NCBI GenBank assembly: GCA_036275915.1
Contig: DASUCV010000004.1
Location: 124,001-188,000, forward strand
Direction: 5' to 3'
DNA: 64,000 nucleotides
Source of the DNA: Candidatus Polarisedimenticolaceae bacterium
GTDB taxonomy: Bacteria > Acidobacteriota > Polarisedimenticolia > Polarisedimenticolales > DASRJG01
Shown one piece after another: positions 45,811 through 60,503 of the stretch. Under the pieces are notes generated by a model. The model saw only the letters and a program-made list of their open reading frames with translations, made no database searches and had not been told where the DNA came from. The position numbers and the translations under genes were made by a program. The number at the start of each line of letters is the position of its first letter. Position 1 is the stretch's first letter.

Positions 45811-45886
45811 TGGAGCGGGAAACGGGGTTCGAACCCGCGACCCTCAGCTTGGGAAGCTGATGCTCTACCAACTGAGCTATTCCCGC
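45811..45886 (-). tRNA. tRNA-Gly(CCC) with encoded CCA
   Basis: A 76-nt tRNA. Acceptor GCGGGAA pairs with TTCCCGC, then TCCA. The D-arm is AGCTCAGTTGGTAGAGC, and the anticodon stem TCAGC/GCTGA with loop TTCCCAA gives anticodon CCC, reading GGG. It is intact, but its 5' half (45847-45886) is one copy of the 43-bp repeat that bounds the mobile element, so this half came with the element. Confidence 0.97.
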
Positions 45887-45889
45887 ACT
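45847..45889. repeat. Attachment core, left copy (within tRNA-Gly 5' half)
   Basis: 43 bp, identical to 60461-60503. It covers the tRNA from the anticodon loop to the 5' end plus 3 bp upstream. Together with the 3' half at 45811-45846 it makes the intact tRNA. Confidence 0.95.
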
Positions 45890-45904
45890 AGGTGAGCAAG
45901 TCCA

Positions 45905-45934
45905 AGAGTAGCGGGAGTTAGCTCGGTTCGTCAA
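45905..45934 (-). promoter_or_regulatory. Element-supplied promoter of tRNA-Gly
   Basis: TTGACG (45929-45934), 18-bp spacer, TACTCT (45905-45910), then 18 nt to the tRNA 5' end. The integrase stop TGA (45931-45933) lies inside the -35 hexamer. It parallels the promoter at 60517-60546. Confidence 0.8.
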
Positions 45935-47142
45935 GCGCGCGCGGTGGCCTCCGAGGAAGGCGTTTCGGGACGAGTGTCCACCTGAGTGTCCACGCCAGAA
46001 ACGAGACGGCGATCGAGAGCCGAGACGACGTTCGCCGTGCGGTCTGCGTCCGACCGCACGTAGAAGCGTTGGGTCGTGCGGACGTCGGCGTGGCCGAGGA
46101 GCGCCTTCGTCTCGCCGACCGGGATGCCCTCCTCTTCCGCCCAGCTCGCCGCGGTCGTGCGGAGGCTCTTGAAGCTCGCCCACGGCATGCCGGCGGTCTC
46201 GGCCGCGTCTCTCCACCTCTGCGAGACCCGGTTGCGCTCGCGCTTCGAGTGAAGCGTCCCGCCGTTCGGGTAGACGAACACGAACTCGGGGACCGACGAC
46301 GTCGCCCGTGCGACCTCCTTCCGAACGCGCTCCATGTCCGCGAGGACCGCCTTCGCCGCCTCGCCGAGCTTGACGCGCTTCGATCGGGCCATCTTGCTCT
46401 CGGCCGAGAAGTAGATGAACCCGCCGCGGGTGTCGACGTCGGACCACCGGAGGCGGACCGCCTCCTGGAGCCGCGCGCCGGCCGCCAAGGCGAACAGCGA
46501 GAGCGCGCGGAGCGTCGGGGTGAGCTGCGCCGCGACCTTCCCCCATTCCTCGGTCGAGAGCGGCCGGCCCTGCGGCTCCGGTTCCTTCGGCTTCTCGACG
46601 TCGGCCGCCGGGTTCGTGTCGATCACCCCCCACCGCTTCGCGAGCTTGAACATGGTCGAGAGGAGCGTGAGGTCTTTCCGGACCGTGGACGCCGAGAGCT
46701 GGCGCCCCTGGTAGCTCGCATTCGACCGCTCGAGGCGGAAGGCGTCGAAGTCGGCCGGCCGGAACTCACGCATGTACCGGGCGCCCAACTCGCGGCGAAG
46801 CGGGCCGGCGCGCTTCTCTTTCACGCCGGGTGCCGGCTCGATCGCCGGCCGTAGCCGCTGTTCGTAGTAGTCGGAGCGCCGAGCGGACGCGTACTCACGG
46901 ATGAACCGATCCGCGAACTCGGCGAATGTCGGGCCCTTCGCCTCCTCGGCCTTGCGCGCCTCCTTCTTCGGGTTGCGATACGTGCCGTCGAGAACCTGTC
47001 CCTTCCGCTTCGTGAGGAGGCTCTTCGCCTGAGTCATCGTCGTGCCGGCGGCCTCGCGGACGCGGTCGCCGTCCTGGTCTCGGAAGTCGATGTCATAGAC
47101 CGTGATCCCGGTCCGTTTGAGAGTGCGTGCTTTGATTGCCAT
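45931..47142 (-). CDS. Tyrosine recombinase/integrase of the element
   Basis: A 403-residue phage-type integrase. An N-terminal arm-binding region (ITVYDIDFRDQDGDRVREAAGTTMTQAKSLL) and a SAM-like core-binding domain (PTFAEFADRFIREYASARR ... SASTVRKDLTLLSTMFKLAKRWGVIDTNPA) precede the catalytic domain. Catalytic residues are R224 (AAGARLQEAVRLRW), K near 250, R328 (FKSLRTTAASW), H351 (LLGHADVRTTQRFY) and the nucleophile Y361. The box II histidine before R328 is Lys here. The ATG at 47140-47142 is preferred. The last codons carry the left arm-type repeat. It should catalyse integration at tRNA-Gly. Confidence 0.93.
   Translation of the reverse strand: MAIKARTLKRTGITVYDIDFRDQDGDRVREAAGTTMTQAKSLLTKRKGQVLDGTYRNPKKEARKAEEAKGPTFAEFADRFIREYASARRSDYYEQRLRPAIEPAPGVKEKRAGPLRRELGARYMREFRPADFDAFRLERSNASYQGRQLSASTVRKDLTLLSTMFKLAKRWGVIDTNPAADVEKPKEPEPQGRPLSTEEWGKVAAQLTPTLRALSLFALAAGARLQEAVRLRWSDVDTRGGFIYFSAESKMARSKRVKLGEAAKAVLADMERVRKEVARATSSVPEFVFVYPNGGTLHSKRERNRVSQRWRDAAETAGMPWASFKSLRTTAASWAEEEGIPVGETKALLGHADVRTTQRFYVRSDADRTANVVSALDRRLVSGVDTQVDTRPETPSSEATARA
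45974..45992. repeat. Candidate integrase arm-type site, left
   Basis: GTGTCCACCTGAGTGTCCA, 84 bp inside the left core and within the 3' end of the integrase gene. It matches 60349-60367 at 17 of 19 positions in the same orientation; each contains GTGTCC twice, 12 bp apart. Confidence 0.65.
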
Positions 47143-47144
47143 GG

Positions 47145-47738
47145 TCAGAAACTCCTTAGCCTGTGCGTCGCGATGAACCGCACGATTCGGAGAAAACGAA
47201 CCTCCTCGAACATCGCATCGCGGAGCGCATCCGCAGTTGCGAAGCACTGCGCGACGAGTTCCCTTCCGTGGACGCTCGTGACGTCGTGGTCAGGATTCAT
47301 GAAATCGATATTGACCAGGACGGCCTGTGCCTCCCGCATGGCGGCGACGTAGGCGGCCGCGGCGCCTCGCACACGAGGCGTGTTGAAGAGTCGGGCGGCG
47401 TCCTGAAACGCCCCTGTACGAAGAAGCACGTCAAGAGTCGCGAGCGCATGCTCGCCGAGTCTGTCGTAGATTTTCGTCAGGCCGTCTCGCCGCTCGTCTT
47501 CATCCTCCGAGAGGTTGTCCCTGTTCTCCTGGCAAGATTCGATCGACTTGACCAACGCAGTGAACGCCGCTGTTGCGTCGTCGAGCAAGACCGAGACGCG
47601 ATCAAACGACCGGAGGAGGACGTCGCGTCGCGCGGTGACGAGGCCCCACCCGATCGAGAAGAAGCCGCCACCGGCGAGCATGACCAGGAGCTGCGGCCAG
47701 AGGTTGGACCAGACGCCGGGGGCGCTACAGGCCGCCAT
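47145..47738 (-). CDS. Membrane-anchored helical protein of the element
   Basis: A 197-residue protein with one N-terminal membrane helix (WPQLLVMLAGGGFFSIGWGLV) followed by a long helical cytoplasmic part (DRVSVLLDDATAAFTALVKSIESCQENRDNLSEDEDERRDGLTKIYDRLGEHALATLDVLLRTG). No family recognised. It ends 2 bp before the integrase start, so the two are probably co-transcribed. Single-helix proteins at this position occur in prophages as superinfection or lysogeny accessories, but that is not shown here. Confidence 0.6.
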   Translation of the reverse strand: MAACSAPGVWSNLWPQLLVMLAGGGFFSIGWGLVTARRDVLLRSFDRVSVLLDDATAAFTALVKSIESCQENRDNLSEDEDERRDGLTKIYDRLGEHALATLDVLLRTGAFQDAARLFNTPRVRGAAAAYVAAMREAQAVLVNIDFMNPDHDVTSVHGRELVAQCFATADALRDAMFEEVRFLRIVRFIATHRLRSF

Positions 47739-47740
47739 GG

Positions 47741-48139
47741 TTACGCCTCCTCCTCATCGCGCGCGGCGCGCTTAAGTTCCGACGCCAAGGCTTCGAGGGT
47801 GTGAACGCTCCCGTAGGTCGTATTACGGATCGCCCGCCTCATCCCGTCGCTCATCGGTCCGTCGTCGCGACCGCCCATAGCGTCGGCGTCGGCCTCGAGC
47901 GAACTCGCGATACTCAGGAGCGCCGGCGCGGTGCGCGCGGCGACGATCGCGAGATCGCGAAGCTCCATCCTCGGGTCGCCCTTACCGGCTCGCTTGTACA
48001 GCTCGTCGGCGACGGCGGTCAGGAAGTAGCCCGGCGCAGCCTCCATGAAGCCGGGAGGAGGCTCGATCGCGGCCGCTACGCGAGCGGCCGGCGTGACGTG
48101 GGCGCTCGCCTTGCTTTCGATCGTCTTCGGCATGGTCAC
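47741..48139 (-). CDS. Hypothetical element protein (132 aa)
   Basis: A mostly helical 132-residue protein (VTPAARVAAAIEPPPGFMEAAPGYFLTAVADELYKRAGKGDPRMELRDLAIVAARTAPALLSIASSLEADADAM) with an acidic C-terminus ending DEEEA. No family recognised. Its ATG overlaps the upstream gene stop by 4 bp, and the next gene starts 2 bp after it. Compact spacing supports it as a real gene of the integrase transcript. Confidence 0.55.
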   Translation of the reverse strand: MTMPKTIESKASAHVTPAARVAAAIEPPPGFMEAAPGYFLTAVADELYKRAGKGDPRMELRDLAIVAARTAPALLSIASSLEADADAMGGRDDGPMSDGMRRAIRNTTYGSVHTLEALASELKRAARDEEEA

Positions 48140-48567
48140 GCCCTCGTTTCCGGCTGCCTATCACGCAGCGCGCGGTACGCCCCGACCAACCGCGCATCGA
48201 CCGCATCGGGGTGATCGGAGAACGGAAACGGAACCGCGGGAGTGCCGCGGTACGGGGAGAGCAGCCGATCGTCCGCTTCGGTGGGGTACGCCTTCATCAA
48301 CGCGCGATAGAGCGGGGAACCGTACGGCGCGAAGTCCATTTCAAGGCGGAGAACCGATGCGCCCTTCTCGGTGGTGGTGGTCGCCGGGATGTCTACTTCC
48401 GTCGGGCGGTAACCGGCGGGGAGGCGATGCTTCAGGCGCGCAGCGGCTTCGAGTAGGCGGTCGTAAGTACCGGAGACGTAGCGCCCCGCCATCGCTTCGA
48501 CGAGCCGGTTAAGCTCGCCCTCCGCGCGTTCGTATGCCTCGTCGGTCGTGATCTTGTGCTTCGCCAT
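48136..48567 (-). CDS. Hypothetical element protein (143 aa)
   Basis: A 143-residue protein beginning MAKHKITTDEAYERAEGELNRLVEAM, helical at first, then mixed (LPAGYRPTEVDIPATTTTEKGASVLRLEMDFAPYGSPLYRALMKAYPTEADDRLL). No family recognised. It overlaps the next gene by 4 bp and follows the 74-residue gene by 3 bp. Confidence 0.55.
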   Translation of the reverse strand: MAKHKITTDEAYERAEGELNRLVEAMAGRYVSGTYDRLLEAAARLKHRLPAGYRPTEVDIPATTTTEKGASVLRLEMDFAPYGSPLYRALMKAYPTEADDRLLSPYRGTPAVPFPFSDHPDAVDARLVGAYRALRDRQPETRA

Positions 48568-48570
48568 GGC

Positions 48571-48795
48571 TCACCCCCTCGCCGCGACGGCATCGTTGTA
48601 CCTAGCCAACATGAATGCCTTCGATCCGACCGAGCCTTTCGCCCTGCGGACCTGTTCGATGACGGCTTCGGGGGTTCCGACTCGCTGGGCACGCTCGATC
48701 TGGTACGCGAAGTCGCTGCGTTCCATTCGACGCGCCAGTACATAGAGCGCGTCGCCAATCTCAACCTCTGCGGCGCGCGCCGGGAACTTGACCAC
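48571..48795 (-). CDS. Hypothetical element protein (74 aa)
   Basis: From the GTG at 48793-48795 the protein reads MVKFPARAAEVEIGDALYVLARRMERSDFAYQIERAQRVG and ends NDAVAARG. It is short and helical and not recognised. A GTG at 48852 would lengthen it to 93 residues but would put the 10-bp perfect hairpin (48827-48849) inside the gene, so the shorter form is preferred. Confidence 0.45.
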   Translation of the reverse strand: MVKFPARAAEVEIGDALYVLARRMERSDFAYQIERAQRVGTPEAVIEQVRRAKGSVGSKAFMLARYNDAVAARG

Positions 48796-48826
48796 CGCGC
48801 CGCCGTTCGCGGGTGGGAGATTTCTA

Positions 48827-48849
48827 CTTCCCGCCAGCGTGGCGGGAAG
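48827..48849 (-). terminator. Hairpin after the ribbon-helix-helix gene, possible attenuator or terminator
   Basis: Perfect 10-bp stem (CTTCCCGCCA with TGGCGGGAAG) and a 3-nt loop, starting 16 nt after the RHH stop. No T-tract follows (TAGAAATC), so it may only slow or process the transcript. Confidence 0.4.
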
Positions 48850-48865
48850 CACGAAGGGTAGGACG

Positions 48866-49147
48866 TTACTTCGCGGGCTTCCTTTTCCTGCTCTCACGGT
48901 TCTCTCCCTTTTCAGGCGCGTGGACTTTCCACGTCCGGTACGCGCCCTCGTCTGCGGCCAGCGCCAACGCGGCGTTGACCCAATTCGATCTCGACAGGCT
49001 GACCTTGTCGGCCGCCGCGTCGATCTTCTCCATGAGCGTGCTGCTGATGCGGACCTGTAGCGTCGCGTCCTTTGCTCGGACCACGGCATCCCCCTTCGCC
49101 GGCTTCCTTGCCGGTGCGGCGGATTCTACGGTCCTCGCTCGACGCAT
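48866..49147 (-). CDS. Ribbon-helix-helix DNA-binding regulator
   Basis: A 93-residue protein with a basic Ala-rich N-terminus and an Arc/CopG-like fold: LQVRISSTLMEKIDAAADKVSLSRSNWVNAALALAADEG (strand, helix, turn, helix) near residues 30-67, then a basic tail (ESRKRKPAK). The ATG at 49145-49147 has GGAGGA 5 nt upstream. A promoter with a perfect 18-bp palindrome between its -35 and -10 lies 20 bp before it, which suggests autoregulation. Confidence 0.82.
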   Translation of the reverse strand: MRRARTVESAAPARKPAKGDAVVRAKDATLQVRISSTLMEKIDAAADKVSLSRSNWVNAALALAADEGAYRTWKVHAPEKGENRESRKRKPAK

Positions 49148-49290: not shown

Positions 49291-49779
49291 TCAAACGTTG
49301 ATGAACACTCCCGGCGCGTAGAAGCCGCTGTAGCAAAGCCAATTCCGCTCGTAGACCGTGACGATGATCAGTTGGTTCGTGACGTAGGTCATCCCTTGCA
49401 GCGTCGCCGGGACGTCGCTCGTCGAGGGGACTGTTCCGCTCGTCGTCGCTTGGACCTCCGCGAACCCGCCCCGCGCGGTGTAGCTGTAGTGGTCGAAGTC
49501 CGTGATCTGTCCCGCGGTGTACAGGTCGCTCGTCGTGATCGGTGGCGAGAACTGCCAACCAAAATCCCACAGGACGTTGTGAATCGGATTGCTCCATCCC
49601 ACCGCGTTTGCCCACGCCTCCGGGCTTCCCGCGGCTTGTGGGTTGGCATACGGATTGACCGGAGGGGTCGACGGCTGCACTGGCGTGACGACCCCTCCTA
49701 CGACGACGGTCGCCGGCTTCGTGGTGAACGGAATCTGGGTGTGCGTGACTCCGTTACGGTCGATGACGGTGAGTGCCAT
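49291..49779 (-). CDS. Hypothetical element protein (162 aa), possible surface/structural
   Basis: A 162-residue protein with a Pro/Thr/Val-rich N-terminus (GGVVTPVQPSTPPVNPYANPQAAG) and a strand- and aromatic-rich C-terminus (WGWQFSPPITTSDLYTAGQ-type, VYERNWLCYSGFYAPGVFINV). Composition unlike its regulator neighbours and resembling phage fibre or decoration proteins, but no family is recognised. The ATG overlaps the upstream stop (TGATG). A promoter for the RHH gene lies downstream of its stop. Confidence 0.5.
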   Translation of the reverse strand: MALTVIDRNGVTHTQIPFTTKPATVVVGGVVTPVQPSTPPVNPYANPQAAGSPEAWANAVGWSNPIHNVLWDFGWQFSPPITTSDLYTAGQITDFDHYSYTARGGFAEVQATTSGTVPSTSDVPATLQGMTYVTNQLIIVTVYERNWLCYSGFYAPGVFINV

Positions 49780-49985
49780 CAGTCCTCCTCCTCTGACTTG
49801 CGCCGAACCGGCTCCAGCCGCTCCGCAACGCCGAGTAGGTGCCTCAGTTCCGCGAGCCCTTCGTGCGCGGCGTTCAGTCGTTCGGCCAGCCGGTTCATCG
49901 CGTGCCTCGTCGCCGAGCGCGGGCGGTCGCGGTGCGGGTCTTCTGTGTCGCGTAGCACTTCGCGGTCGCGGTCACGACGACGCAT
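49779..49985 (-). CDS. Small charged element protein (68 aa)
   Basis: Begins MRRRDRDREVLRDTEDPHRDRPR, followed by one amphipathic helix (MNRLAERLNAAHEGLAELRHLLGVAERLEPV) and an acidic end (KSEEED). The ATG at 49983-49985 has GAGGTG upstream; an in-frame GTG at 50006 would add seven residues. No family recognised. It may be a small coiled-coil partner of the neighbouring gene products. Confidence 0.5.
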   Translation of the reverse strand: MRRRDRDREVLRDTEDPHRDRPRSATRHAMNRLAERLNAAHEGLAELRHLLGVAERLEPVRRKSEEED

Positions 49986-50056
49986 CGTCACCTCAATTGA
50001 AAACACCGTCGCCGGGTGAACCCCAGCGACGGCGGTCCGTTCATCGCGATCTCACC

Positions 50057-51070
50057 TCAGTGGCGATAGGCAGCCTGGAAACGGGCATGGAGCTCGGGCT
50101 GCTCCCTCGCGGCGAGTGCGACACCGGCAATGAAGTCGTTCGCGGGGACCCGTCCATTCGCGAACGCCCGCTGGATGAACTCCCTCATCTCGTCCGTCGC
50201 GCTCCGCTTCTCGGCGGCGCTGAGTTGGACCACCGGCCGCTCCGGCTCGGTGCGGGCTTCGCCGCGGTCCCGCATCCCCGCCGCGTAGAGCGCCGGGTTC
50301 TCTTGCTTGACGACGTCGAGCGCGTCGCCGAAGCCAATGTTCCGCTCCGCTTCGATCCGCTTGGCCTCGAGGAGCAGCCGCTCCTCGTTCGGCCCATGCA
50401 TTCCGGCCCTCTCCTGCGACGACAGCTTGCGGTTGCCATCCGGAGCCGAAGGTGTCGGGACGACCTGACCGCGCGCGCGCTCGACGAGATCGGGGTTCTT
50501 CGTCGCGATCTGCTTGAGCGCGTCGGGGGGATTGCTCGCGATGCCGCGGTCGAGCAATTCCTCCACGAGCTGCGCGAGTTCGTGACGCGCCACGAGCGGC
50601 CCGACGAATGTCGCAGGGAGGAATTTGTCGACGGCGGCCTGGTCGCCGGTCGCCGAGAAGTTGGCGTAACTCTCCAATGCGAGCTTGTAGATCGCTGGCA
50701 TGTTCGCCTTGATCGCTTCCACCGCGGTCTCGTAGTCGCAGTTGTGGGCCCGCTTGTAGTCCCCGATCTGCTCGAGGACGATCTTCTTCGCCCGCGTCGG
50801 AGTCATGGTGCTGTGATTGCTCGTCATGTGCGTGCTCCTGGCGCTCGTGCGCCCGTTGTTCGATTCAAGATCCTCCGCGCTCAGCGTGACGGCATCGCAG
50901 CCATCTCTGTCCTCGAGCGTGAGCTTGCTTCCGGCGCGTAGCGCGGCCTTGATCGCCGGCCACGCACCGTTATTGATCGCGGCGACGGCCTCCGGCACAC
51001 TGCCGAGGTGATAGACGCGGCGCCGGAGTTCGTCGAGCTCCTGGCAGAGATCCGCCGGTAGGTTGATCAC
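50057..51070 (-). CDS. Element protein with repeated helical motif (337 aa)
   Basis: A GTG-started 337-residue protein. Residues 1-81 form a separate part (INLPADLCQELDELRRRVYHLGSVPEAVAAINNGAWPAI). Two later segments resemble each other: CDYETAVEAIKANMPAIYKLALESY near residue 103 and IGFGDALDVVKQENPALYAAGMRDRG near 250. This motif is often seen in the tails of phage head protease or scaffold proteins, so a scaffold-like role is possible. An internal ATG (residue 82) with a good Shine-Dalgarno could give a shorter product. It follows the coiled-coil gene by 4 bp. Confidence 0.55.
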   Translation of the reverse strand: MINLPADLCQELDELRRRVYHLGSVPEAVAAINNGAWPAIKAALRAGSKLTLEDRDGCDAVTLSAEDLESNNGRTSARSTHMTSNHSTMTPTRAKKIVLEQIGDYKRAHNCDYETAVEAIKANMPAIYKLALESYANFSATGDQAAVDKFLPATFVGPLVARHELAQLVEELLDRGIASNPPDALKQIATKNPDLVERARGQVVPTPSAPDGNRKLSSQERAGMHGPNEERLLLEAKRIEAERNIGFGDALDVVKQENPALYAAGMRDRGEARTEPERPVVQLSAAEKRSATDEMREFIQRAFANGRVPANDFIAGVALAAREQPELHARFQAAYRH

Positions 51071-51074
51071 GGCC

Positions 51075-51848
51075 TCACTTCGCCTTCGCGATCACGTCGT
51101 GGAGCTGGGCCGCGGCGAGGCCGGGAATCGAGAACTCCCGCGAGAGACCGGCGACGATCTCGGCCGCGCTCGTGTACATGCCGATCGCCATCTCGCCGGC
51201 GGCGAGCCGGAGCTCGTCGCGCCTACGCCCCTTTGCCGCGATCCTGGACGCGTCGGGCAGAATCTCTCTCCGGAGGACGTCGAGCATCTTCGTGCGCAGC
51301 GCCTCGCAGTCGGCCGGGGTCTCGTTGTGCAGCTTCATCGCCTCGTCGAGGTCCGCCTTCCGCTGGTGCTTCTTCAGCTCGGCGACCGAGGCATCGTGCT
51401 CGGCGGTGAGACGGACGTGCTCGGCCCTGAAGGCGTCTCGCCGGCCGGTCATGGTGATCCGTTCCATGATCGCGTCGTCGCGGTCCTTGTCGCTCGTCGC
51501 CGAGTCCTGGATCCGCTCCGAGAGCTCGGCGATCTTGTCGTCATGCGCCTGGACCTTGTCGCCCATCCGGTTCTTGCTCTCCCCGGCGGCCGACGCGGCC
51601 TTGCGCGCGTCCTCGAGCGTCGTCGGTCCCTTGGGCTTGTCGCTCGACGTGAACGCGTTCCCGTAGGGCGTGCGGCCCTGCGAGTTGTGCAGCGGCGCGT
51701 CGTCGACCTCTTCGGCCTCGCCGGTGGCGCACATGCGCATGCCGTCGGCGTGCGGGACGAAGCCGACGACACCGGGCGGGATGAGCTGATTCGACGGCCA
51801 GCCCGCGAGGGTGTCCGTGTTGAGCTGCTTGAGTGTGCGGATCTTCAT
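51075..51848 (-). CDS. Coiled-coil element protein (257 aa)
   Basis: The protein begins MKIRTLKQLNTDTLAGWPSNQLIPPGVVGFVPHADGMRM, a compact N-terminal part. A long charged coiled-coil region follows (MGDKVQAHDDKIAELSERIQDSATSDKDRDDAIMERI; HVRLTAEHDASVAELKKHQRKADLDEAMKL). The end is helical. The ATG at 51846-51848 is chosen. It lies directly after TerL, where phages usually have portal genes, but it does not look like a portal. No family recognised. Confidence 0.55.
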   Translation of the reverse strand: MKIRTLKQLNTDTLAGWPSNQLIPPGVVGFVPHADGMRMCATGEAEEVDDAPLHNSQGRTPYGNAFTSSDKPKGPTTLEDARKAASAAGESKNRMGDKVQAHDDKIAELSERIQDSATSDKDRDDAIMERITMTGRRDAFRAEHVRLTAEHDASVAELKKHQRKADLDEAMKLHNETPADCEALRTKMLDVLRREILPDASRIAAKGRRRDELRLAAGEMAIGMYTSAAEIVAGLSREFSIPGLAAAQLHDVIAKAK

Positions 51849-51879
51849 CGTGTCTCTCCATGCGGCGCGCGGGCCGCGA

Positions 51880-53349
51880 TCAAAACGCTTCAAAAGCCGG
51901 GTTCGGGTGACGTGTCCAAATCGACGGGCGCCACTGGCCGCCGCGGATGCCGCCGGTTGACGACTGCCCGAGCCGCCATAACGCGTAACCCGCCGCGTCA
52001 GAGAAGTGCGTCAGCGACTTGTCTCTCTTGTCGATCTCGCGCGTGCCGGGCCGCCACGAGACGCGAGAAAAATCCCGAACGAGAAACTTGCACCGCGGGT
52101 GGATGTGGAGCTTCACGGCACCGTCGGCGGAGCGCAAAAAGGCGTTTACCTTGGCCACGCGCTCGGACACCGGAGGATTCGAGTCGCTCTCCCGCACCGA
52201 GAGCCGGTGGTAGTACTTGCCGAGCTCACTGCGGATAATTTCGTAGTCCGTCGCCGTCGCCGACGTCTTCCGCGCTCGGCCCGAGCTGTCTCCGTAGACC
52301 ACGACTTCGAGCGTCTTGTCGGGGTACCGACGAATAAACTCTTTGCACGCGCGCTCGGTCGTCGCGCCGCCAGCGATGACAAGCTCGTCGATGATCCAAG
52401 CCTCGTGCTGGTGATGCTGCATCACGACCCACGCCATCGGGTCGACGTTGAAGTCGCAGGACAAGATCAGCGGAAGGCCGGCTTGCAGCGCGACACGCTC
52501 CACAACGTGCGTCGAGCGATCAAACGCCTCGTACGCAGGCAGAGACGTGCCGTCGAGCCACTCGGCTTCGTACAGGCGACGGAACTCCGACGCCGACAGC
52601 CTGCTCCGCTCCCGCGCGATGAACCGAACGTACTGACCGCGACCGCAGTCGGGCCGATGCCCGTCGACCGTTTCGAGCGCGACAGGGATCGCGGAGCGTT
52701 TCGCCCCGCACCGACACGCATGCGCCGACGCGCGATCCCGCCAGGTCCACCGGCGGCACGCGAAGCCGGCCGCTCCCGACTCCGCCGCGCGATAGAGCGA
52801 CTCCGCCGTCCCGCCGACGTCGCCGACGTTCCCGAGGTAGACGAGCCGCCCCTCACCGCGGCTGATGGTCTCGGCGCGTCTCGAGGAGATCACCGCGTAG
52901 GCGTCCGGCGTCAACTGGCCGAACTCGTCGACCACGCCGCCACGCGTCGGCGGTCCGTACAGGAGTTCCGGCCTGTCCCACGAGCGCGCCTGAATCTGCG
53001 CGCCGTTCTTGAGTGTGAGCCGAAAGGGAGGCGTCGTCGTCGGCTCCCCGCGCAAGATCCCCGCGCTCCGCGCCATCGCCGCGAGCCCCTTGAAGCCGTG
53101 CTCGCACTGCCCGTGCGTCGGCGCGAACCAAGACCACGGGATCTCGCCCGGGCCTCCGCGCCACGCGACGGCCAAGAGCCACGCCTCACCGACCGTCGTC
53201 TTCCCGAGCTGGGGCGCCGAGATCGTGAGGTCGTCCCGCGCCGGAGACGTGAGCACCGGGAGCTGGTACTCGCGCAGCGCCGGCAGCCGGAGGATCTCGG
53301 TCCGGTGTGCGGGCTGCACTCGGGGCGCCGTCGCGGTCACTTGCGCCAC
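51880..53349 (-). CDS. Phage terminase large subunit (packaging ATPase-nuclease)
   Basis: A 489-residue TerL. The ATPase has the Walker A-like SAPQLGKTT (44-52) and Walker B GGVVDEFGQL (D141, E142), then SSRRAET as coupling motif. The RNase H-like nuclease has LILSCDFNVDPMAWVV (D299), VVVYGDSSG (D353) and THFSDAAGYALW (D450). Four Cys (CRRWTWRD, HACRCGA, DCGRG) may bind zinc. It pumps DNA into a procapsid. GTG start, overlapping the OB-like gene by 13 bp. It appears intact, so packaging function is likely retained. Confidence 0.9.
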   Translation of the reverse strand: MAQVTATAPRVQPAHRTEILRLPALREYQLPVLTSPARDDLTISAPQLGKTTVGEAWLLAVAWRGGPGEIPWSWFAPTHGQCEHGFKGLAAMARSAGILRGEPTTTPPFRLTLKNGAQIQARSWDRPELLYGPPTRGGVVDEFGQLTPDAYAVISSRRAETISRGEGRLVYLGNVGDVGGTAESLYRAAESGAAGFACRRWTWRDRASAHACRCGAKRSAIPVALETVDGHRPDCGRGQYVRFIARERSRLSASEFRRLYEAEWLDGTSLPAYEAFDRSTHVVERVALQAGLPLILSCDFNVDPMAWVVMQHHQHEAWIIDELVIAGGATTERACKEFIRRYPDKTLEVVVYGDSSGRARKTSATATDYEIIRSELGKYYHRLSVRESDSNPPVSERVAKVNAFLRSADGAVKLHIHPRCKFLVRDFSRVSWRPGTREIDKRDKSLTHFSDAAGYALWRLGQSSTGGIRGGQWRPSIWTRHPNPAFEAF

Positions 53350-53855: not shown

Positions 53856-54136
53856 GCTTGGGCTCGCGCCTTCCGGAGTCGCGCCGCACGCTGCTTGGCT
53901 TCGGGCTTCCGGCTCCTCGCAACGAGCCGATACAGCCCCGGCTCGGTGACGGTGAGAAGCTCCTGGGGGCCGCCAGGGGTAGTCATAATCTGACGCCCCT
54001 TGCAGTCCTCTGGCATGCCAGCTAGCGCGCGGTGATGCTGCTCAATCCCCAACACCGCGCACACGTCCGCCGCGATCCATTCGGGGGCTTCCTGCGTCCC
54101 AACCATGCGGGCGAGGACGAGGGCCGTGCTCGTCAC
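53852..54136 (-). CDS. Stand-alone BRO-N domain protein
   Basis: A 94-residue protein with the BRO-N core: PEWIAADVCAVLGIEQHHRALAGMPEDCKG, then TTPGGPQELLTVTEPGLYRLVARSRKPEAKQ. Normal family members go on to a short helix with R-W-V-.-.-E-V-L-P and often a C-terminal domain; here the protein ends after a basic stretch (RAARLRKARAQA). BRO domains bind DNA and are common in phages and large DNA viruses. It overlaps both neighbours by 4 bp. Confidence 0.75.
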   Translation of the reverse strand: MTSTALVLARMVGTQEAPEWIAADVCAVLGIEQHHRALAGMPEDCKGRQIMTTPGGPQELLTVTEPGLYRLVARSRKPEAKQRAARLRKARAQA

Positions 54137-54801
54137 GACTGCGCCTCGCTCTCACCGTTGCCCGCTGTCGCGCGTTCCTCGCCCTCGACGGCCTCGACAT
54201 CGGCACCGGTGGCCGGCGATCCTGAGGCGTCCTGTGAGGCCAAAGTGTTGTAAAGGTCGGTGCCGTCGCTGAGCTGGACGACGTAGAGGGTCTCGGCCGC
54301 GTGCGGCGCCGCCTGCGCCTTCAGCTCGGCGAGGCGGTCGATCAACTGGCGCACCTCGGCGCGGTCTTCCTTCTCGAGCGAGACCAGGCGCTCGTACGTC
54401 GGCGTAAGCGAGCCGTCGCGGCGGACGCGGCCGGTCCGGTCGACGATCTTCGCCATGGTCTCGATCTCGTGCTCGGCACGCGCGAGACGACGGGCAAGGC
54501 GCTCCCCGATCGGCGACGCCGCGATGCCAGCCTCGAGGATCACGCGCAGCGCCTCGGCGACGTGCTTCTTCAGCCGCTCGCCCTCGCCACGCTTGGCGAG
54601 CCGGCGGGCCTCGCGCATGCGGAGCGTGAACTCCGGGTCACGGGCAGCGTTGACGTTGCCCTTCGGCGCGCCGCCGCGACGCGGCTTCGCCGGGTCGGTC
54701 GTGGGGGTGACGGGCGGTCGTTTCGAGCTCGTCGCGGTCTCGCCCGTGGACACCTGCGGCGACGACGTGCCGGAAGTCGCGACGTTTCGGGGTTTCGTCA
54801 T
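54133..54801 (-). CDS. Possible terminase small subunit-like protein
   Basis: A 222-residue protein. A Ser/Thr/Pro-rich start leads to RRGGAPKGNVNAARDPEFTLRMREARRLAKRG, a lead common in phage DNA-binding proteins and some small terminases. A long helical centre follows (LARAEHEIETMAKIVDRTGRVRRDGSLTPTYERLVSLEKEDRAEVRQLIDRLAELKAQ). It sits three genes before TerL, the usual place of TerS. The assignment rests on position and composition, not on a clear family match. Confidence 0.4.
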   Translation of the reverse strand: MTKPRNVATSGTSSPQVSTGETATSSKRPPVTPTTDPAKPRRGGAPKGNVNAARDPEFTLRMREARRLAKRGEGERLKKHVAEALRVILEAGIAASPIGERLARRLARAEHEIETMAKIVDRTGRVRRDGSLTPTYERLVSLEKEDRAEVRQLIDRLAELKAQAAPHAAETLYVVQLSDGTDLYNTLASQDASGSPATGADVEAVEGEERATAGNGESEAQS

Positions 54802-54950: not shown

Positions 54951-55135
54951 CCGATACCCCGATACCCCCCTCGCGCGGGGGAAGACTCCTTACAGTCGTC
55001 TCTTCCCCCCCGACGCGCGATGTCTTGCGGGGGCTGTCGATCCGACACCTTCCGATACCCTCCGATACCAGCACGAGAAGCGTTCATTTCTCGGGCTCCT
55101 TGGTATCGGGCTCATCTCCGACACCTTCCGATACC
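54951..55135. repeat. Iteron-like CCGATACC repeats, candidate element origin
   Basis: CCGATACC (or CCGACACC) occurs at 54951, 54959, 55042, 55052, 55062, 55118 and 55128, and inverted at 55102. The 19-mer TCCGACACCTTCCGATACC is exact at 55041-55059 and 55117-55135. Spacing of 8-10 bp within groups suggests protein binding on one DNA face. The right group lies inside the 3' end of the primase gene; the rest fill the 282-bp gap at 54802-55083, which has no gene. Confidence 0.65.
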
Positions 55136-56859
55136 GACACGTAGAGCGGGCTCCCGTTCACTTTCCTGCCCGTGTCCTTCAGGAGACCGGCCGCCACGGC
55201 GGCCTTGATCGAGTCGACGATGGTCGTCGGGGCGCCGAGATTCGCGGCCTTCGCCTCGGCCTGCGTCGCCTCGCCCTTCCCCTTGAACCAAGCGACGGTC
55301 GCCCTCGCCGTCGGCGACAACACCTTCGACGTGGCCGTGCCGACGTACGTCAGCGTGAACGATCCATCCGCGTGCCACGTCGGCTCGAGCGTGAACGGAG
55401 ACGGCTTGCGCGCGCCTCTAACCTTCTCCGGCCCGACCTTCACGAGCCCGTCGTCATCGCTGAGGCTGAAGATCGTGTCGGTCGAGGCCCACAGGTCGAC
55501 GCCGCCGCGGTAGGACGTGCCGTCTTTCCCGGAGTGATGGAGGATCACGAAGAGGAGCTCATGCTTCTCGGCGAGCCCGCGGAGCATGAGGTGCAGCTCG
55601 TTTCCGGCGTCGTTGTCGAGGTCCCACTTCACGCGCTGGCCGTTGACTTCCTTCGGCCGCAGGCCGGTAAGCGAGTCCAGGATGACCGCGTCGTAGGGTC
55701 CGGTCGATTCGATGATCGCGGGGAGGTCGTCGGTCGTGATCCGGTTCTCGGCGCTTGCGGCGAAGAGGTAGAGCAGCTCGCCGTCGAGCTTGGCCTTCCC
55801 GAGCCCCTTGAGGCACTTCTCCCCGATCTCCCGCAGCTCGCCCGCCGACTCCTCGCAGGCAATGACGAGCGCCCGCTTCCACCGCTTCTCGATCCACAGG
55901 TCCGGGTGCCCGAACAGGCGACCGCAGCCGGTGTCGACGAGCATCTCGTGACAGAGGGTCATCGCCGTGTGGGTCTTCCGTCCGCCCGGCGTCGCCCACA
56001 TGACCGCGAGGCCCTTCTCGCGCAAGAGGTTCTTGACGGCGAACTTCGGTTTCGTAGGCTTGATCGACTCGTCGTAGAGATTGACGGGGACGATCGCCGG
56101 CATGCTCGGCGCGGGGGTGCCGTACGGCACGAACTCGTCGAGCGTGTGGCCGCCCTTGAGGTGGTCGAAGCCGTCCTTTCCAATCCGCGCCTCGACGACC
56201 CCCACGGATGCCGCGATGCCCTGTAGGTGATGCCGAACGTCTAGGGCATGCTTTCGTCCCGGCTCATCCTTGTCGGCGACGATGACGACGCGAGCGCCGC
56301 GGAGCGTCTCGGAGTATTCGGGCCGCCACTTCCCGGCGCCTCCCGCGTTTGTCGTCGCGATGAAGCCGGACCCTTCGATCGCGTTGATCGCGTCGGCATC
56401 CTTCTCGCCTTCGACGACGTAGATCGTTTCGTCCTGGCGTACCGCCTCGACGAGGTCGGGGAGGCGGTAGAGCACGCGGCGCGCGTTCGCCATGTTCCAG
56501 ACCCAACCGCCCGCACCATCGGGGCGCCGCTGTCGAAAGTCCTTCGGATCGAATCGCACGACCTGGAAGAGCACGTCGCCGTTCTCGTCCGTGTAGTCGT
56601 AGGTCTTGACGATGCGCTCGGCCTTCGTCGCAGCGACGAACAGGTCGGTCATCTTCAGCCCGACGCGGGCGACGATCTCCTCGCATGGGCAACCCGCCTG
56701 ACAGTGGACGAGCGCGCGGCCGTCGTCGCCTTCCTCGAGGTGCGCGCTCGGCGTGTGGTCCTCGTGCGCCGGGCACCGGAAGTCCCACCCGCGGCCATTG
56801 CGCTTCGGCTTGCAGTCGCACGCCGCGAGAGCGTCGAGCACACGCTGGACGGGGCTCAC
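55084..56859 (-). CDS. Primase-helicase-like replication protein (CHC2, Toprim, RepA-type ATPase)
   Basis: A 591-residue protein. A CHC2 zinc finger lies at the N-terminus (FRCPAHEDHTPSAHL ... VHCQAGCPCEEI; C29, H32, C53, C57). A Toprim domain follows (ETIYVVEGEKDADAI with E150; RVVIVADKDEPGRKHA with D196/D198). The C-terminal half is a RecA-like ATPase with the Walker A variant WATPGGRKTHTAM (about 288-300), VIACEESAGEL and Walker B YDAVILDSLTGL. It should prime and drive element replication. GTG start overlapping the zinc protein stop. Iteron-like repeats run into its 3' end. Confidence 0.88.
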   Translation of the reverse strand: MSPVQRVLDALAACDCKPKRNGRGWDFRCPAHEDHTPSAHLEEGDDGRALVHCQAGCPCEEIVARVGLKMTDLFVAATKAERIVKTYDYTDENGDVLFQVVRFDPKDFRQRRPDGAGGWVWNMANARRVLYRLPDLVEAVRQDETIYVVEGEKDADAINAIEGSGFIATTNAGGAGKWRPEYSETLRGARVVIVADKDEPGRKHALDVRHHLQGIAASVGVVEARIGKDGFDHLKGGHTLDEFVPYGTPAPSMPAIVPVNLYDESIKPTKPKFAVKNLLREKGLAVMWATPGGRKTHTAMTLCHEMLVDTGCGRLFGHPDLWIEKRWKRALVIACEESAGELREIGEKCLKGLGKAKLDGELLYLFAASAENRITTDDLPAIIESTGPYDAVILDSLTGLRPKEVNGQRVKWDLDNDAGNELHLMLRGLAEKHELLFVILHHSGKDGTSYRGGVDLWASTDTIFSLSDDDGLVKVGPEKVRGARKPSPFTLEPTWHADGSFTLTYVGTATSKVLSPTARATVAWFKGKGEATQAEAKAANLGAPTTIVDSIKAAVAAGLLKDTGRKVNGSPLYVSVSEGVGDEPDTKEPEK

Positions 56860-57029
56860 TGTTCGCGTCCTTCCGGCTCGCCGACGTGCACGAGCAGCGT
56901 GCGCTCGCCGTGACAGCACGGGCACGCGGCGACAATCCCTCGGCCGTCCGCCGTAAGCTTCGGTTCGCAGCCGTGCTCCTCGAGCGCGTCGAACATCTTC
57001 CGGAGCGCCTGCGCGGCCTGGGCGGTCAT
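56856..57029 (-). CDS. Small zinc-ribbon-like element protein (57 aa)
   Basis: MTAQAAQALRKMFDALEEHG opens an amphipathic helix, then CEPKLTADGRGIVAACPCCHGERTLLVHVGE. Three cysteines and a histidine (C-P-C-C-H plus an earlier C) could hold zinc. It overlaps the primase start by GTGA and the next gene by ATGA, so it is a real coupled gene in spite of its length. It may assist the primase. Confidence 0.6.
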   Translation of the reverse strand: MTAQAAQALRKMFDALEEHGCEPKLTADGRGIVAACPCCHGERTLLVHVGEPEGREQ

Positions 57030-57217
57030 GCCGCCCGCCTCCGGGCTTCACGTCGCCGCAACTCGACGAGATCCTTCAGCCACGCGGCCCTAGCCTCGGC
57101 GATGTGCACGAACCCATGCGCGCGCCGGCGACACTCCGCGGCGTCGGCTCTCGACTCCCACGCGAACCGCGCGAGCGCCTTGAGCGGGATGATCTCGTCG
57201 CGGGGGCGGTAGTTCAC
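57026..57217 (-). CDS. Small basic element protein (63 aa)
   Basis: GTG-started (MNYRPRDEIIPLKALARFAWE). Highly basic and helical (CRRRAHGFVHIAEARAAWLKDLVELRRREARRR). No family recognised. It overlaps both neighbours by 4 bp, which supports it as part of the replication transcript. Confidence 0.55.
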   Translation of the reverse strand: MNYRPRDEIIPLKALARFAWESRADAAECRRRAHGFVHIAEARAAWLKDLVELRRREARRRAA

Positions 57218-57432
57218 TTCGACCTCGTCGCCTTGCTACGCGTGCGCTCGAGGAACTCGTCGAGCTGCTCGCGCGTGACGAGGATGACGTGGCGCTTACC
57301 CTTACCTACCCGGTGGCACCCGAGGGTGCCGTTCCTCGTCCAGTCGTGAAGCGTGGACTTCGGGACGCCGAGCATCCCGGAGAGCTCGTCCAAGCGGAAG
57401 GCAAGACGCTCGGGAGCCGCCGACGCAGTCAT
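57214..57432 (-). CDS. MerR-like helix-turn-helix protein, possible excisionase
   Basis: A 72-residue protein with a winged HTH of the excisionase/MerR type: FRLDELSGMLGVPKSTLHDWTRNGTLGCHRVGKGKRHVILVTREQLDEFLERTR. This layout is shared by phage Xis-like proteins and small activators. It may direct excision by the integrase or control the replication genes that follow. The ATG overlaps the XRE gene stop by 4 bp. Confidence 0.78.
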   Translation of the reverse strand: MTASAAPERLAFRLDELSGMLGVPKSTLHDWTRNGTLGCHRVGKGKRHVILVTREQLDEFLERTRSKATRSK

Positions 57433-57704
57433 CGGGCCGCCTCGGCAAGTTCACGATCGGCGGCCGGTTGCGGTTCCTCGAAGAGCGCCATGATCGGGAG
57501 GCCGAGGGCCGCCGCGATCGTCGCCTGCTCGTCGGCCGTCGCCGGAAGAAGTCGCAGCTCAATCCGAGAAATACGCGACTGCGACAGGCCGCAAAGCCGC
57601 GCGAGCGATGCTTGAGAATGCAGGCAGCCGCGCCTGTGAGCCTTGAACGAGAGGCTCCGGGCAAAGGCATGGCCGGTGGGCTTGCTCGCGTCGATTGATT
57701 CCAC
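57429..57704 (-). CDS. XRE-family (Cro/CI-type) repressor
   Basis: A 91-residue protein. A basic lead precedes a Cro/CI-like HTH: SQASLARLCGLSQSRISRIELRLLPATADEQATIAAALGLPIMALF, near residues 30-76. Recognition helix is SQSRISRIE. The end is acidic. GTG start at 57702-57704. It probably holds the early gene block in check. It stands first among the regulators of the replication run. Confidence 0.8.
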   Translation of the reverse strand: MESIDASKPTGHAFARSLSFKAHRRGCLHSQASLARLCGLSQSRISRIELRLLPATADEQATIAAALGLPIMALFEEPQPAADRELAEAAR

Positions 57705-57733
57705 GCGAGAAGTTTCACGGCTGCGGGCTTCGG

Positions 57734-58453
57734 TTAGGTCTGTGTAACCCGTCGCTTTTCGGCGTGAGGTTGCACACCGATGGCGATCGCTGCGTGGGGT
57801 TGCCTCTTTCGCCGCGCGCGCTCAGGTCGCGCGATGTCGAGGACACGATCGTCGGACAACTCGACGCCCTGCTCTACCAGAAACGCGCTCACGATTCGGA
57901 CGGCAAGGCTCGAGGCCGTCGGCCTGCGACCAATCCTCACGCGCTCGAGGATTCGCCGAACCCTCTCACTGATCGCATCGGACGCACCGCGCCGGAACAT
58001 ACCGACGTCGAGCGCGTCGGCGATCTCTACGGCTGACCTTGCGATCGCGCCGTCGAGCCATCCGAGAACGACGAGCACGCTTCGATACAAATGGCGGATC
58101 TCGGTCTCTGCCGCCTTCGCCTCAAGGGGTGTATCGCCGAGCGTTGTCGTGCGTCGGCCGGGTCGACGATTCGTCGTGCGCTTGAATGCCGTGACGGCCG
58201 CTCCGAAGTCTTCGACGCGCTTGTGGATCGCCATGAGGCGGTCCCACTCGCCCGAGCCGTGGAGCTCCTGGTAGAGGTCCATGAGGTCTCTTTCGGTGCG
58301 AATCGGAACTTCGATGAGCCTCGCGCCCATAGGCTCGGTGTCGTCCGGCGCGGTGCGTTTCCGGCGAACCGTCACGAGCTTCATGCCCGGCGATGGCTGG
58401 AGAGCGTGGACCGGCGACGGCCGGTAGAACTCGCGGAGGGAGAAGCGTTGCAT
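57734..58453 (-). CDS. Hypothetical element protein (239 aa)
   Basis: A 239-residue protein, not recognised. The N-terminal quarter is strand-rich and basic (MKLVTVRRKRTAPDDTEPMGARLIEVPIRTERDLMDLYQELHGSGEWDRLMAIHKRVEDFGAAV), followed by helices (AAETEIRHLYRSVLVVLGWLDGAIARSAVEIADALDVGMF) and a basic end (RPERARRKRQP). It lies 29 bp upstream of the XRE gene on the same strand. Its position among regulators suggests a control or accessory role. Confidence 0.5.
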   Translation of the reverse strand: MQRFSLREFYRPSPVHALQPSPGMKLVTVRRKRTAPDDTEPMGARLIEVPIRTERDLMDLYQELHGSGEWDRLMAIHKRVEDFGAAVTAFKRTTNRRPGRRTTTLGDTPLEAKAAETEIRHLYRSVLVVLGWLDGAIARSAVEIADALDVGMFRRGASDAISERVRRILERVRIGRRPTASSLAVRIVSAFLVEQGVELSDDRVLDIARPERARRKRQPHAAIAIGVQPHAEKRRVTQT

Positions 58454-58550: not shown

Positions 58551-58703
58551 CTACGACGATCTCAGACGGCTCAGAATGACGAGGCCCGCGCCAACGGCAA
58601 GGAGGCACGCGAGCGACAACGGCACCGAACGCGGGAAGGCGGCGGCCGCGAGAAGGCCCGCAATGCAGAGCGCGACTCCGGCGAGCCTGGTCATGGTTCT
58701 CAT
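58551..58703 (-). CDS. Small two-helix membrane protein (50 aa)
   Basis: Reads MRTMTRLAGVALCIAGLLAA, then a second hydrophobic stretch (LSLACLLAVGAGLVILS) and a basic end (RLRSS). Two membrane helices with a short turn. Small holins look like this, but so do many other peptides. The adjacent stretches 58454-58550 and 58704-58819 hold no gene I can support. Confidence 0.45.
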   Translation of the reverse strand: MRTMTRLAGVALCIAGLLAAAAFPRSVPLSLACLLAVGAGLVILSRLRSS

Positions 58704-58819
58704 TCGCAACCCCCGCTGCAACCCGCGCCGCCATCCCGGTCCTGCGAGGGGTAAAGGCGTCCCCGCTGCGCGGGCAGGAGCCGCATCCTCTGGGTCGAGG
58801 GTGCGGGGCCGCGCGGATT

Positions 58820-59947
58820 CTATCGCGCTCGGCGACTCGGGGGCACGACCTCCAAGGACACGAGCTCGCCCCGACGATCGGCAGGCCTCGGACGGTAACT
58901 GTCCGGAGCGCGGTCAGGCTGCTCGCCGCGCGCGTCGCGGCGGACGGCTGCATTTGCCCGATGACCTGCCGCCCGCTTCGAGTGAGGCACTCGCTTCGCA
59001 CGACGACGAAGTTCGCAGACGGACAGGTTGAGGTGCGCCTGCGGCATGAGCTGGAACGCGTGCACCTGGCCTTCTCTTGGGTCGTCGACGCGTTCGTACA
59101 CCTCGACGTTCATCGCCTTCGGCGCCCGCAGTGGTGCGTAGCGATCGACGAGCCGCCTGATGCCGGCGACGTCGTTCTCGTCGGAGAGCAGGATGCTTTC
59201 ATCGGCGCTGAGAACCTGGAGGCCGTTGAGCATCTCGACGTCGCGCGCGGTCACGGCGATGGCATCCCCCGAAGCGAGCTTATACACCGCAGGATCGAAC
59301 AGCATGACGGTGACTTCCGGCGACACCGGCAAGAAGACCTGAAGGCCGCGCTGGGCGATCCCGAGTACTCCGGTTCCGTGCACTCCCTCGCAGAATTGGT
59401 TGTACAGAAAGACCGGATCATCCGACGTTACGAACCGCACGCCGGTGGGGGCGACAAGGGTACGCATGTGAAGATCGACAAGACCGTGCGCTGCTTCGTT
59501 CACAACGCCGAGCGCGAGCCTCATCGCCTCTACTGACGAGATCGGCCCCGACCAGCCGTCGCGCACGAGCTCCGGTGACATCGGGCCGAGCGCCTTCCGC
59601 ATGTTTTCCCAAGACTCCACTGACGATTCAACGGCGGCGACGCTACGACGGTGCTGAAGGGCGATGAACGTAACCAGGTGTCCCATCGTCGCCGTATTTC
59701 GGGCGGGAGGTCGTTGCGTCAAGATCACTTCTTGAACGACCGGCGCGAACGCATCTTCGAGCTTCTGGAGCCGCTCCTCAAGACCGGGAAACTCCCCGTA
59801 GAAACTCGGCTCACAGCACTGGTCGCGAAGACTCGCCTTCAAGAAGGCCTCACGCCGCTCGAGGTTAAAGACGTGGATCTGCCGAGCGTTCTGCGAGAAC
59901 GCCCTCAGGTAGAACTTCGGCACGAAGTGATGCCGGCCAGTGTCCAC
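58820..59947 (-). CDS. DUF4238 family protein
   Basis: A 375-residue protein with the DUF4238 opening GRHHFVPKFYLRAFSQNARQIHVFNLE, the centre FIALQHRRSVAAVESSVESWENMRK and the closing region VRFVTSDDPVFLYN followed by FLPVSPEVTVMLFDP. Function is unknown; such genes are often in variable, horizontally moved regions. The C-terminal 60 residues are basic and low in complexity. GTG start at 59945-59947. It pairs with the DUF2513 gene at the right end, where satellites and prophages commonly keep cargo. Confidence 0.85.
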   Translation of the reverse strand: MDTGRHHFVPKFYLRAFSQNARQIHVFNLERREAFLKASLRDQCCEPSFYGEFPGLEERLQKLEDAFAPVVQEVILTQRPPARNTATMGHLVTFIALQHRRSVAAVESSVESWENMRKALGPMSPELVRDGWSGPISSVEAMRLALGVVNEAAHGLVDLHMRTLVAPTGVRFVTSDDPVFLYNQFCEGVHGTGVLGIAQRGLQVFLPVSPEVTVMLFDPAVYKLASGDAIAVTARDVEMLNGLQVLSADESILLSDENDVAGIRRLVDRYAPLRAPKAMNVEVYERVDDPREGQVHAFQLMPQAHLNLSVCELRRRAKRVPHSKRAAGHRANAAVRRDARGEQPDRAPDSYRPRPADRRGELVSLEVVPPSRRAR

Positions 59948-59961
59948 GTCGCTCGCCCCCT

Positions 59962-60330
59962 CTATGCGAGGCCCATCTGCGCCTTCGCGATTTCCGCGGC
60001 CACCTTCGCGAAGACCTCGATCGACGCTGACCGCAGTTGCTCGCCGATCGTCGCCTTCGTCTTGGTCCACACCTCCGGCGTGCGGATGTTGTCGAGGTAG
60101 TCGTGCCCGGTGGACGTGAGGCGGAGGACGGTGAAGACGGGGACGGGGCGCTGTTGGAGGTCGAGGAACCTCGCCTGCACGAAGCCCGCATCGTCGAGCA
60201 ACTGAACGTGGTAACCGATCATCGTCTTGTCGAAGCCGTCGATCGCCAGCTCGCTCTCGCTGAGCGGGCCCGGGCCGGCCTCTTCCACGCGGAGAAGGAT
60301 CGCTCGCAGAAGATCGTGATCGCGCTTCAT
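59962..60330 (-). CDS. DUF2513 family protein
   Basis: A 122-residue protein with the typical start MKRDHDLLRAILLRVEEAG and core TMIGYHVQLLDDAGFVQARFLD, then VLRLTSTGHDYLDNIRTPEVWTKTKATIG. The fold is probably a winged helix. Members are widespread in prophages and mobile islands; function is unproven. It lies 14 bp before the DUF4238 gene and is the last gene before the right end. Confidence 0.88.
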   Translation of the reverse strand: MKRDHDLLRAILLRVEEAGPGPLSESELAIDGFDKTMIGYHVQLLDDAGFVQARFLDLQQRPVPVFTVLRLTSTGHDYLDNIRTPEVWTKTKATIGEQLRSASIEVFAKVAAEIAKAQMGLA

Positions 60331-60348
60331 TCCGTCACCCGCCCGCAG

Positions 60349-60367
60349 GTGTCCGCCTGGGTGTCCA
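60349..60367. repeat. Candidate integrase arm-type site, right
   Basis: GTGTCCGCCTGGGTGTCCA, 93 bp inside the right core. See 45974-45992 for its partner (17/19, same orientation). Confidence 0.65.
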
Positions 60368-60408
60368 AGCTGCGCGGATTCTACCGGCGTCGTCGGATTT
60401 GTCGGATG

Positions 60409-60446
60409 AAAAAAGAAAGGCCCGGCGTGAGAAGTGCCGGGCCTTT
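60409..60446 (-). terminator. Strong intrinsic terminator just inside the right end
   Basis: Perfect 11-bp stem (AAAGGCCCGGC with GCCGGGCCTTT, 9-nt loop), followed on the minus strand by a T-rich run (TTTCTTTTTT). It stops minus-strand transcripts entering the element, including any from the orphan tRNA-Gly promoter at 60517-60546. Confidence 0.9.
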
Positions 60447-60460
60447 CAGCTACTTGCGTT

Positions 60461-60503
60461 GCTTGGGAAGCTGATGCTCTACCAACTGAGCTATTCCCGC
60501 ACT
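60461..60503. repeat. Attachment core, right copy = orphan 5' half of tRNA-Gly
   Basis: 43 bp identical to 45847-45889. On the minus strand it is the tRNA-Gly from 3 nt upstream of the 5' end to the anticodon loop; no 3' half follows. It marks the original chromosomal 5' half left by integration. Confidence 0.95.

Follow-up and report, generated by a model that had tools for sequence, protein, structure and literature searches.

What kind of mobile element carries its own DNA-packaging motor and no recognised gene for a particle to be filled? This question is raised by a 14.6-kb element integrated at a tRNA-Gly gene of an acidobacterium, at positions 45847-60503 of a 64,000-nucleotide stretch of contig DASUCV010000004.1 (the whole stretch is hereafter called the window, and coordinates refer to it unless another contig is named). 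An earlier reading of the letters alone, here called the original prediction, had described the unit as phage-satellite-like. We conclude that the element is probably a phage satellite that sits integrated in the chromosome and encodes its own terminase, and that it is probably packaged in the particles of another phage.

The element is framed by a tRNA gene and two repeats, and brings genes for integration and replication:

45811-45886, minus strand: intact tRNA-Gly(ccc), the integration target (ARAGORN).
45847-45889: attachment repeat, copy in the tRNA 5' half, 43 bp, 100% identical to the far copy.
60461-60503: attachment repeat, far copy, corresponding to the displaced tRNA 5' half, 43 bp, 100% identical.
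45931-47247, minus strand: tyrosine integrase, likely start at 47142 by the coding model (phrog_1, 1.2e-55; PF00589, 1e-20).
55084-57051, minus strand: CHC2-Toprim-AAA primase/helicase, likely start at 56859 (phrog_6088, 2.4e-25; AAA_25, 2.7e-10).

The perfect 43-bp repeats had been noticed in the original prediction and were recovered at both ends; 2.6e-16 such matches are expected by chance within the stretch. On the left, the repeat coincides with the 5' half of the intact tRNA gene, reaching the anticodon region, and the integrase gene adjoins this tRNA. Both the integrase and the CHC2-Toprim-ATPase replication protein claimed earlier are confirmed by the profile matches listed, and the CHC2 zinc ligands of the latter are invariant in an alignment with relatives. 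Attachment repeats flanking the element, an own integrase and an own replication gene are all features of phage satellites. All 22 called genes lie on the minus strand, as had been claimed, and make up 92% of the element; each has one terminal stop, and GC content at third codon positions is high (coding model). The 4-base gene overlaps, likewise described before, are found at 48136, 53852, 54133, 57214 and 57429. GC content is 66.8% in the element, against about 71.5% in the flanks. A search for an empty site found none: the nearest relative lacks the gene on the left flank, and in another genome (G004) the match to this gene lies in a different context without tRNA-Gly.

The packaging motor is represented by two genes:

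51880-53349, minus strand: large terminase TerL with ATPase and nuclease motifs intact (phrog_10250, 4e-18).
54133-54801, minus strand: TerS-like protein of 222 amino acids (aa), a family marker with homologues in two relatives (L027 and L125, described below) and a helical-bundle model.

The TerL had been called intact-looking and, judged by its residues, appears so: it has Walker A (QLGKTT) and Walker B (VVDEFG) motifs and the three aspartates of the nuclease, all in register with relatives. Furthermore, a profile built on TerL sequences matches solved phage TerLs. The nearest TerL, 56% identical over 449 residues, belongs to a 30-kb phage contig (IMG/VR, here L008).

Does the element also encode a head into which this motor could feed? 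PHROGs and Pfam scans covered 20 of the element's genes, and among these no significant match to a portal, capsid, protease or tail protein was obtained, in agreement with the original prediction. Two controls were positive. In L008, PHROGs finds a portal (3.8e-30), a protease and a major capsid protein (MCP; 2.7e-28) directly downstream of TerL, and in the acidobacterial prophage L162 it finds a portal (3e-83) and a protease (2e-78). Because of these two results, ordinary virion genes would probably have been seen, though a divergent fold could escape. The layout of a complete prophage, in which TerL is followed by portal and MCP, is not recognised in the element, where the positions after TerL hold the following genes:

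51075-51848, minus strand: 257-aa protein with a coiled-coil-like centre and a strong coding signal (open reading frame, ORF, to 51893); no relative found.
50057-51070, minus strand: 337-aa protein, mostly helical, with repeated helical segments at the C-terminus (AlphaFold2 mean pLDDT, a per-residue confidence score, 57).
49291-49779, minus strand: 162-aa protein, beta-rich by eye, with no PHROGs or Pfam family and no relative found.

These genes invite the reading that the element is a small autonomous phage with a portal, capsid and tail too divergent to be recognised. For about ten genes no relative was found in any library, and the 337-, 257- and 162-aa genes stand directly after TerL, the usual place of virion genes. 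Yet TerL and the tRNA are only about 6 kb apart, and the integrase takes up 1.2 kb of this, leaving scant room for portal, head and tail, and PHROGs does recognise the virion genes of the very phage that carries the nearest TerL. A structure-based check of the unrecognised proteins, proposed with the original prediction, was carried out for the 337-aa and 222-aa proteins. The single-sequence model of the 337-aa protein, which exceeds its mean pLDDT in residues 223-337, is mostly helical and has no HK97-like or portal match, and its fold search gave nothing below E 0.2; the model is of low confidence and too poor for more. The model of the 222-aa protein is a bundle of helices that resembles TerS proteins only weakly. 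Searches by sequence were equally silent: tblastn against phage records returned no match for the 337-, 162- and 222-aa queries and only E 0.4 for the 272-aa ORF (51075-51893), and IMG/VR scans with the 337-aa protein, the 272-aa ORF and the primase as a single sequence gave no confirmed relative. Taken together, we regard an autonomous phage as very unlikely.

A second source of evidence is a set of four tRNA-bounded relatives of 8.9-11.3 kb, all with perfect tRNA-derived repeats. Three of them lie in Acidobacteria bacterium Prado002 (G031), a genome of the same class as the host of the element that was reached through the primase search; the fourth is from another acidobacterial family. The acidobacterial host considered earlier is supported.

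L027: tRNA-Leu, 39-bp perfect repeats, 8.86 kb; integrase, sigma-region-4 protein, lone HK97 MCP (PHROG, 1e-43), TerS-like homologue, primase.
L125: tRNA-Pro, 50-bp repeats, 9.9 kb; TerS-like protein, AAA protein, sigma-region-4 protein, integrase.
L147/L149: tRNA-SeC, 37-bp repeats, 11.3 kb; integrase, 687-aa protein, sigma-region-4 protein, MCP (1.8e-23), PHROG TerS (8e-8), primase.
L161 (the different family): tRNA-Ser, 62-bp repeats, 10.4 kb; integrase, primase, weak TerS match (0.005), lone MCP (7e-33).

The element, L027, L125 and L147 have a common order: replication protein, TerS or TerS-like protein, a variable slot, further genes, integrase, tRNA. In L161 the integrase stands on the opposite side of the primase, which makes it a looser relative. 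The slot holds TerL in the element, MCP in L027, L147 and L161, and nothing recognisable in L125 (neither MCP nor TerL among the part of its genes scanned with PHROGs). No portal was recognised among the scanned proteins of the four. The primase of the element is 51% identical to that of L027 over about 290 aa. An alignment search of IMG/VR with the primase returned 80 contigs, which hold no marker genes of the element apart from generic integrases, and the idea that the primase belongs to a defence system was set aside, PADLOC having given only a weak match in the Toprim region.

The position of the TerS-like gene in this series bears on its role. Homologues are found in L027 (E 5e-20) and L125 (E 7e-15), and the equivalent position in L147 is occupied by the TerS that PHROGs recognises; mainly for this last reason, the 222-aa protein is likely the DNA-recognition subunit of the terminase. 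In its modelled helical bundle, residues 56-164 form a three-helix core of high confidence (pLDDT about 90). Fold searches gave nothing significant, with several TerS proteins among the best viral matches (best named TerS, E 0.16) and the HK97 TerS in the PDB list at E 4.6. Matches from VIA-align reached Z 8 and were discarded as helical-bundle look-alikes without meaning. Outside the element, L027 and L125, no member of the family was found in 396 sampled genomes of the phylum, in the other genomes searched of the class, or among about 85,000 genomes examined by a less sensitive pattern scan; an IMG/VR scan likewise gave no confirmed relative.

The same relatives weigh on the alternative that the element is a reduced or decaying prophage, a former complete phage that has lost portal, capsid and tail and retains TerL as a relic. 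The nearest TerL is followed directly in its contig by portal, protease and MCP, just where the element has unrecognised genes, and the Bro-N (anti-repressor-like) and XRE genes described below are phage-typical. Decay, however, would sit poorly with the lack of broken genes, the 92% coding share and the perfect attachment repeats. The TerS-like marker is shared by at least two relatives that are equally small and have no recognised portal, which argues that the reduced state is common to the relatives and not a one-off loss; primase relatives, too, sit in small elements. The original prediction had proposed looking for the same gene order without virion genes in related genomes, and the satellite-like reading passes this check with a qualification: colinear relatives without a recognisable portal exist, and three relatives keep a lone MCP. 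Because the relatives share a layout in which one slot varies and a portal is never recognisable (at most they have a lone MCP, in one case with a protein that looks tape-measure-like by eye), satellites with exchangeable hijacking genes are a better fit than a decayed prophage, and the satellite-like reading gains support. We consider decay unlikely. No sister strain of the element was found in the searches made.

Could the element instead spread by a different route, perhaps alongside a conjugative partner, and use TerL and the TerS-like protein for another purpose? The acidobacterial genome G130 gives some room for this idea, as it holds small tRNA-bounded elements that have integrase and primase but lack a clear packaging gene. 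Nevertheless, the Pfam scan of the element's genes found no relaxase or mobilisation match in the families searched, the TerL, TerS-like, Bro-N and excisionase genes are of phage type, and relatives carry MCP. This is the least probable of the readings considered.

Several observations weigh against a satellite packaged by its own terminase. The TerS-like protein has no PHROGs or Pfam match and its fold matches are weak. The layout shared with the relatives is loose: the genes between TerL and the integrase have no counterparts in them, the element lacks the sigma-region-4 genes seen in L027, L125 and L147, and L161 has no marker protein in common with it, only an integrase and a primase of generic type. 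A virion protein may yet be hidden among the 257- and 162-aa proteins. The host genome has no other convincing TerL of the phrog_2 type or MCP of the phrog_10 type, and no resident helper was seen, other families not having been searched. A search of the same genome for a portal of the phrog_113 type found no match, but its control was equally silent, and the result carries no weight. Helper, particles, excision and transfer are presumed here from gene content.

Some side observations concern the integration sites and the relatives. Recombination in the tRNA 5' half is seen for the element (45811-45889), L027 (4567-4655) and L149 (2867-2967); such elements bring a 5' half with upstream DNA, and the original 5' half with its own upstream DNA is moved to the far end. 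L125 and L161 recombine instead at the tRNA 3' half. In L147 the integrase frame (8014-9639) continues beyond the attachment site and across the tRNA, the target being the selenocysteine tRNA, and the 687-aa protein (10302-12365) is the one that looks tape-measure-like; it has no PHROG match, and no other tail genes are recognised there. The sigma-70 region 4 proteins (L027:6778-7146, L125:11971-12564, L147:12358-12960) are possible late-gene regulators. G130 carries four primase relatives; its tRNA-bounded elements (L028:955-8268 and L030:6991-14618, 7.3-7.6 kb) were rejected as family members, showing only a weak TerS match (0.017). In L162 and L163, MCP lies inside apparent full prophages, which served as contrast and not as members.

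Along the direction of transcription, the genes of the element run DUF2513, DUF4238, 239-aa protein, XRE, HTH_17, two small ORFs, primase, TerS-like, Bro-N, 172-aa protein, TerL, proteins of 257, 337, 68, 162, 93, 74, 143, 132 and 197 aa, integrase and tRNA. Those not yet listed are:

59962-60330, minus strand: DUF2513 protein (PF10711, 8e-24; phrog_585, 2e-27).
58820-59947, minus strand: DUF4238 protein, possible cargo (PF14022, 2.6e-35).
57734-58453, minus strand: 239-aa protein (coding model), without PHROGs or Pfam family.
57429-57704, minus strand: XRE-type repressor-like protein (phrog_4583, 2.5e-7; HTH_31, 6e-6).
57214-57432, minus strand: HTH_17 (MerR-like) excisionase/AlpA-type regulator (PF12728, 2.9e-10; phrog_66, 8e-7).
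56856-57217, minus strand: two small ORFs of 57 and 63 aa (coding model).
53852-54136, minus strand: Bro-N/anti-repressor-like domain (PF02498, 1.1e-9; phrog_130, 1.6e-17).
53337-53855, minus strand: 172-aa protein (ORF) overlapping the TerL start, without PHROGs or Pfam family.
50004-50034, minus strand: terminator-like hairpin past the 337-aa gene, 13-bp stem and TTTT; the scan total is not above chance.
49779-49985, minus strand: 68-aa small protein (coding model).
48866-49147, minus strand: 93-aa protein (coding model).
48571-48795, minus strand: 74-aa protein (coding model), a short form of the 172-aa ORF at 48571-49089.
48136-48567, minus strand: 143-aa protein (ORF), no PHROGs or Pfam family above the cut-off.
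47741-48139, minus strand: 132-aa protein (ORF), with a 4-bp overlap with the neighbouring gene.
47145-47738, minus strand: 197-aa protein (ORF) with a hydrophobic N-terminus, without family in PHROGs or Pfam.

The XRE and MerR-like regulators thus stand as first described, whereas a ribbon-helix-helix (RHH) regulator was not confirmed, its sole trace being a sub-threshold RHH_3 match (E 0.16). The Bro-N, DUF4238 and DUF2513 genes are additions to the original prediction. The hairpin may divide the element into two transcription units. The DUF4238 and DUF2513 pair (58820-60330) at the far end is possible cargo; PADLOC gave no match.

For a satellite of this composition we hypothesize the following course. 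The integrase would have inserted the element into tRNA-Gly(ccc). Signals from a presumed helper phage would cause the regulators to release it, with excision by the integrase and the HTH_17 protein, and the primase/helicase would replicate the released element. The element's own terminase (TerL with the TerS-like protein) would then cut its DNA and drive it into heads, for which the helper would supply portal, capsid and tail. The TerS role, helper dependence, packaging and mobility are inferences. Because relatives carry a lone MCP where the element has TerL, the exchange at this slot suggests interchangeable hijacking genes, some of which may redirect the capsid while that of the element would bring the motor. 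Only tentatively do we go further and propose a type of satellite with a complete motor (TerL and an orphan TerS family) and no head or portal, which would dock on the helper's portal and be one option in an acidobacterial family in which the slot after the small terminase alternates between a gene for the motor and a single capsid gene.

How does such an element compare with known satellites? With phage-inducible chromosomal islands (PICIs) and the Staphylococcus aureus pathogenicity islands (SaPIs) it shares integrase, repressor, primase and small size. The cos-type SaPIbov5 encodes the capsid homologue Ccm, by which assembly of the helper is redirected (PMC8569155), and the lone MCP of L027, L147 and L161 recalls this single homologue redirecting helper capsids; the element differs in having TerL, no MCP and a host of another phylum. 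According to PMC10690885, packaging-redirecting SaPIs bring TerS and use the helper's TerL; SaPI-type PICIs are defined by repressor, integrase, primase and either TerS or a gene for capsid remodelling, with no TerL, and the element has one. As in capsid-forming PICIs (cf-PICIs), a large terminase is encoded, and probably, judged by its homologous slot, a small one; the additional genes of cf-PICIs for MCP, protease, portal, connectors and HNH, listed in the summary of PMC10690885, are unrecognised here with L008 and L162 as positive controls. The small chassis of an integrase, an HTH_17/AlpA-type regulator (PF12728) and a primase resembles the phage-inducible chromosomal minimalist islands (PICMIs) of Vibrionaceae (PMC10803314); these have no terminase gene (PMC10803314), and the scanned genes of the element have no match to Fis (PF02954) or DUF3987/DUF5906, its primase being of the Toprim/AAA_25 type. 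The Streptomyces satellites MulchRoom and MiniFlayer have their own terminase, as the element does, and additionally encode portal, MCP, scaffold and adaptor (PMC10690885). TG93, a satellite-plasmid of Vibrio (PISP; PMC13230959), differs in being episomal with capsid and protease and no TerL mentioned.

In the open-access literature searched, no paper pairs Acidobacteria with 'phage satellite', and for this reason the element and its relatives may be the first satellite family for this abundant soil phylum. The relatives form a comparative series on a common chassis, with MCP, TerL or neither in the one slot that changes. A review takes terminase genes in an element to suggest phage mobilisation (PMC11389934), and the packaging genes of the satellites described in the papers cited here range from TerS, Rpp or scaffolds (PICI) through a whole head with both terminases (cf-PICI, MulchRoom) to none (PICMI) (PMC10690885, PMC10803314, PMC11389934). 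If the proposal is true, the packaging motor itself can serve as a hijacking tool, one that must dock on a foreign portal; within the literature searched, TerL without any recognised head gene falls outside the definitions of PICI, cf-PICI, MulchRoom and PICMI alike.

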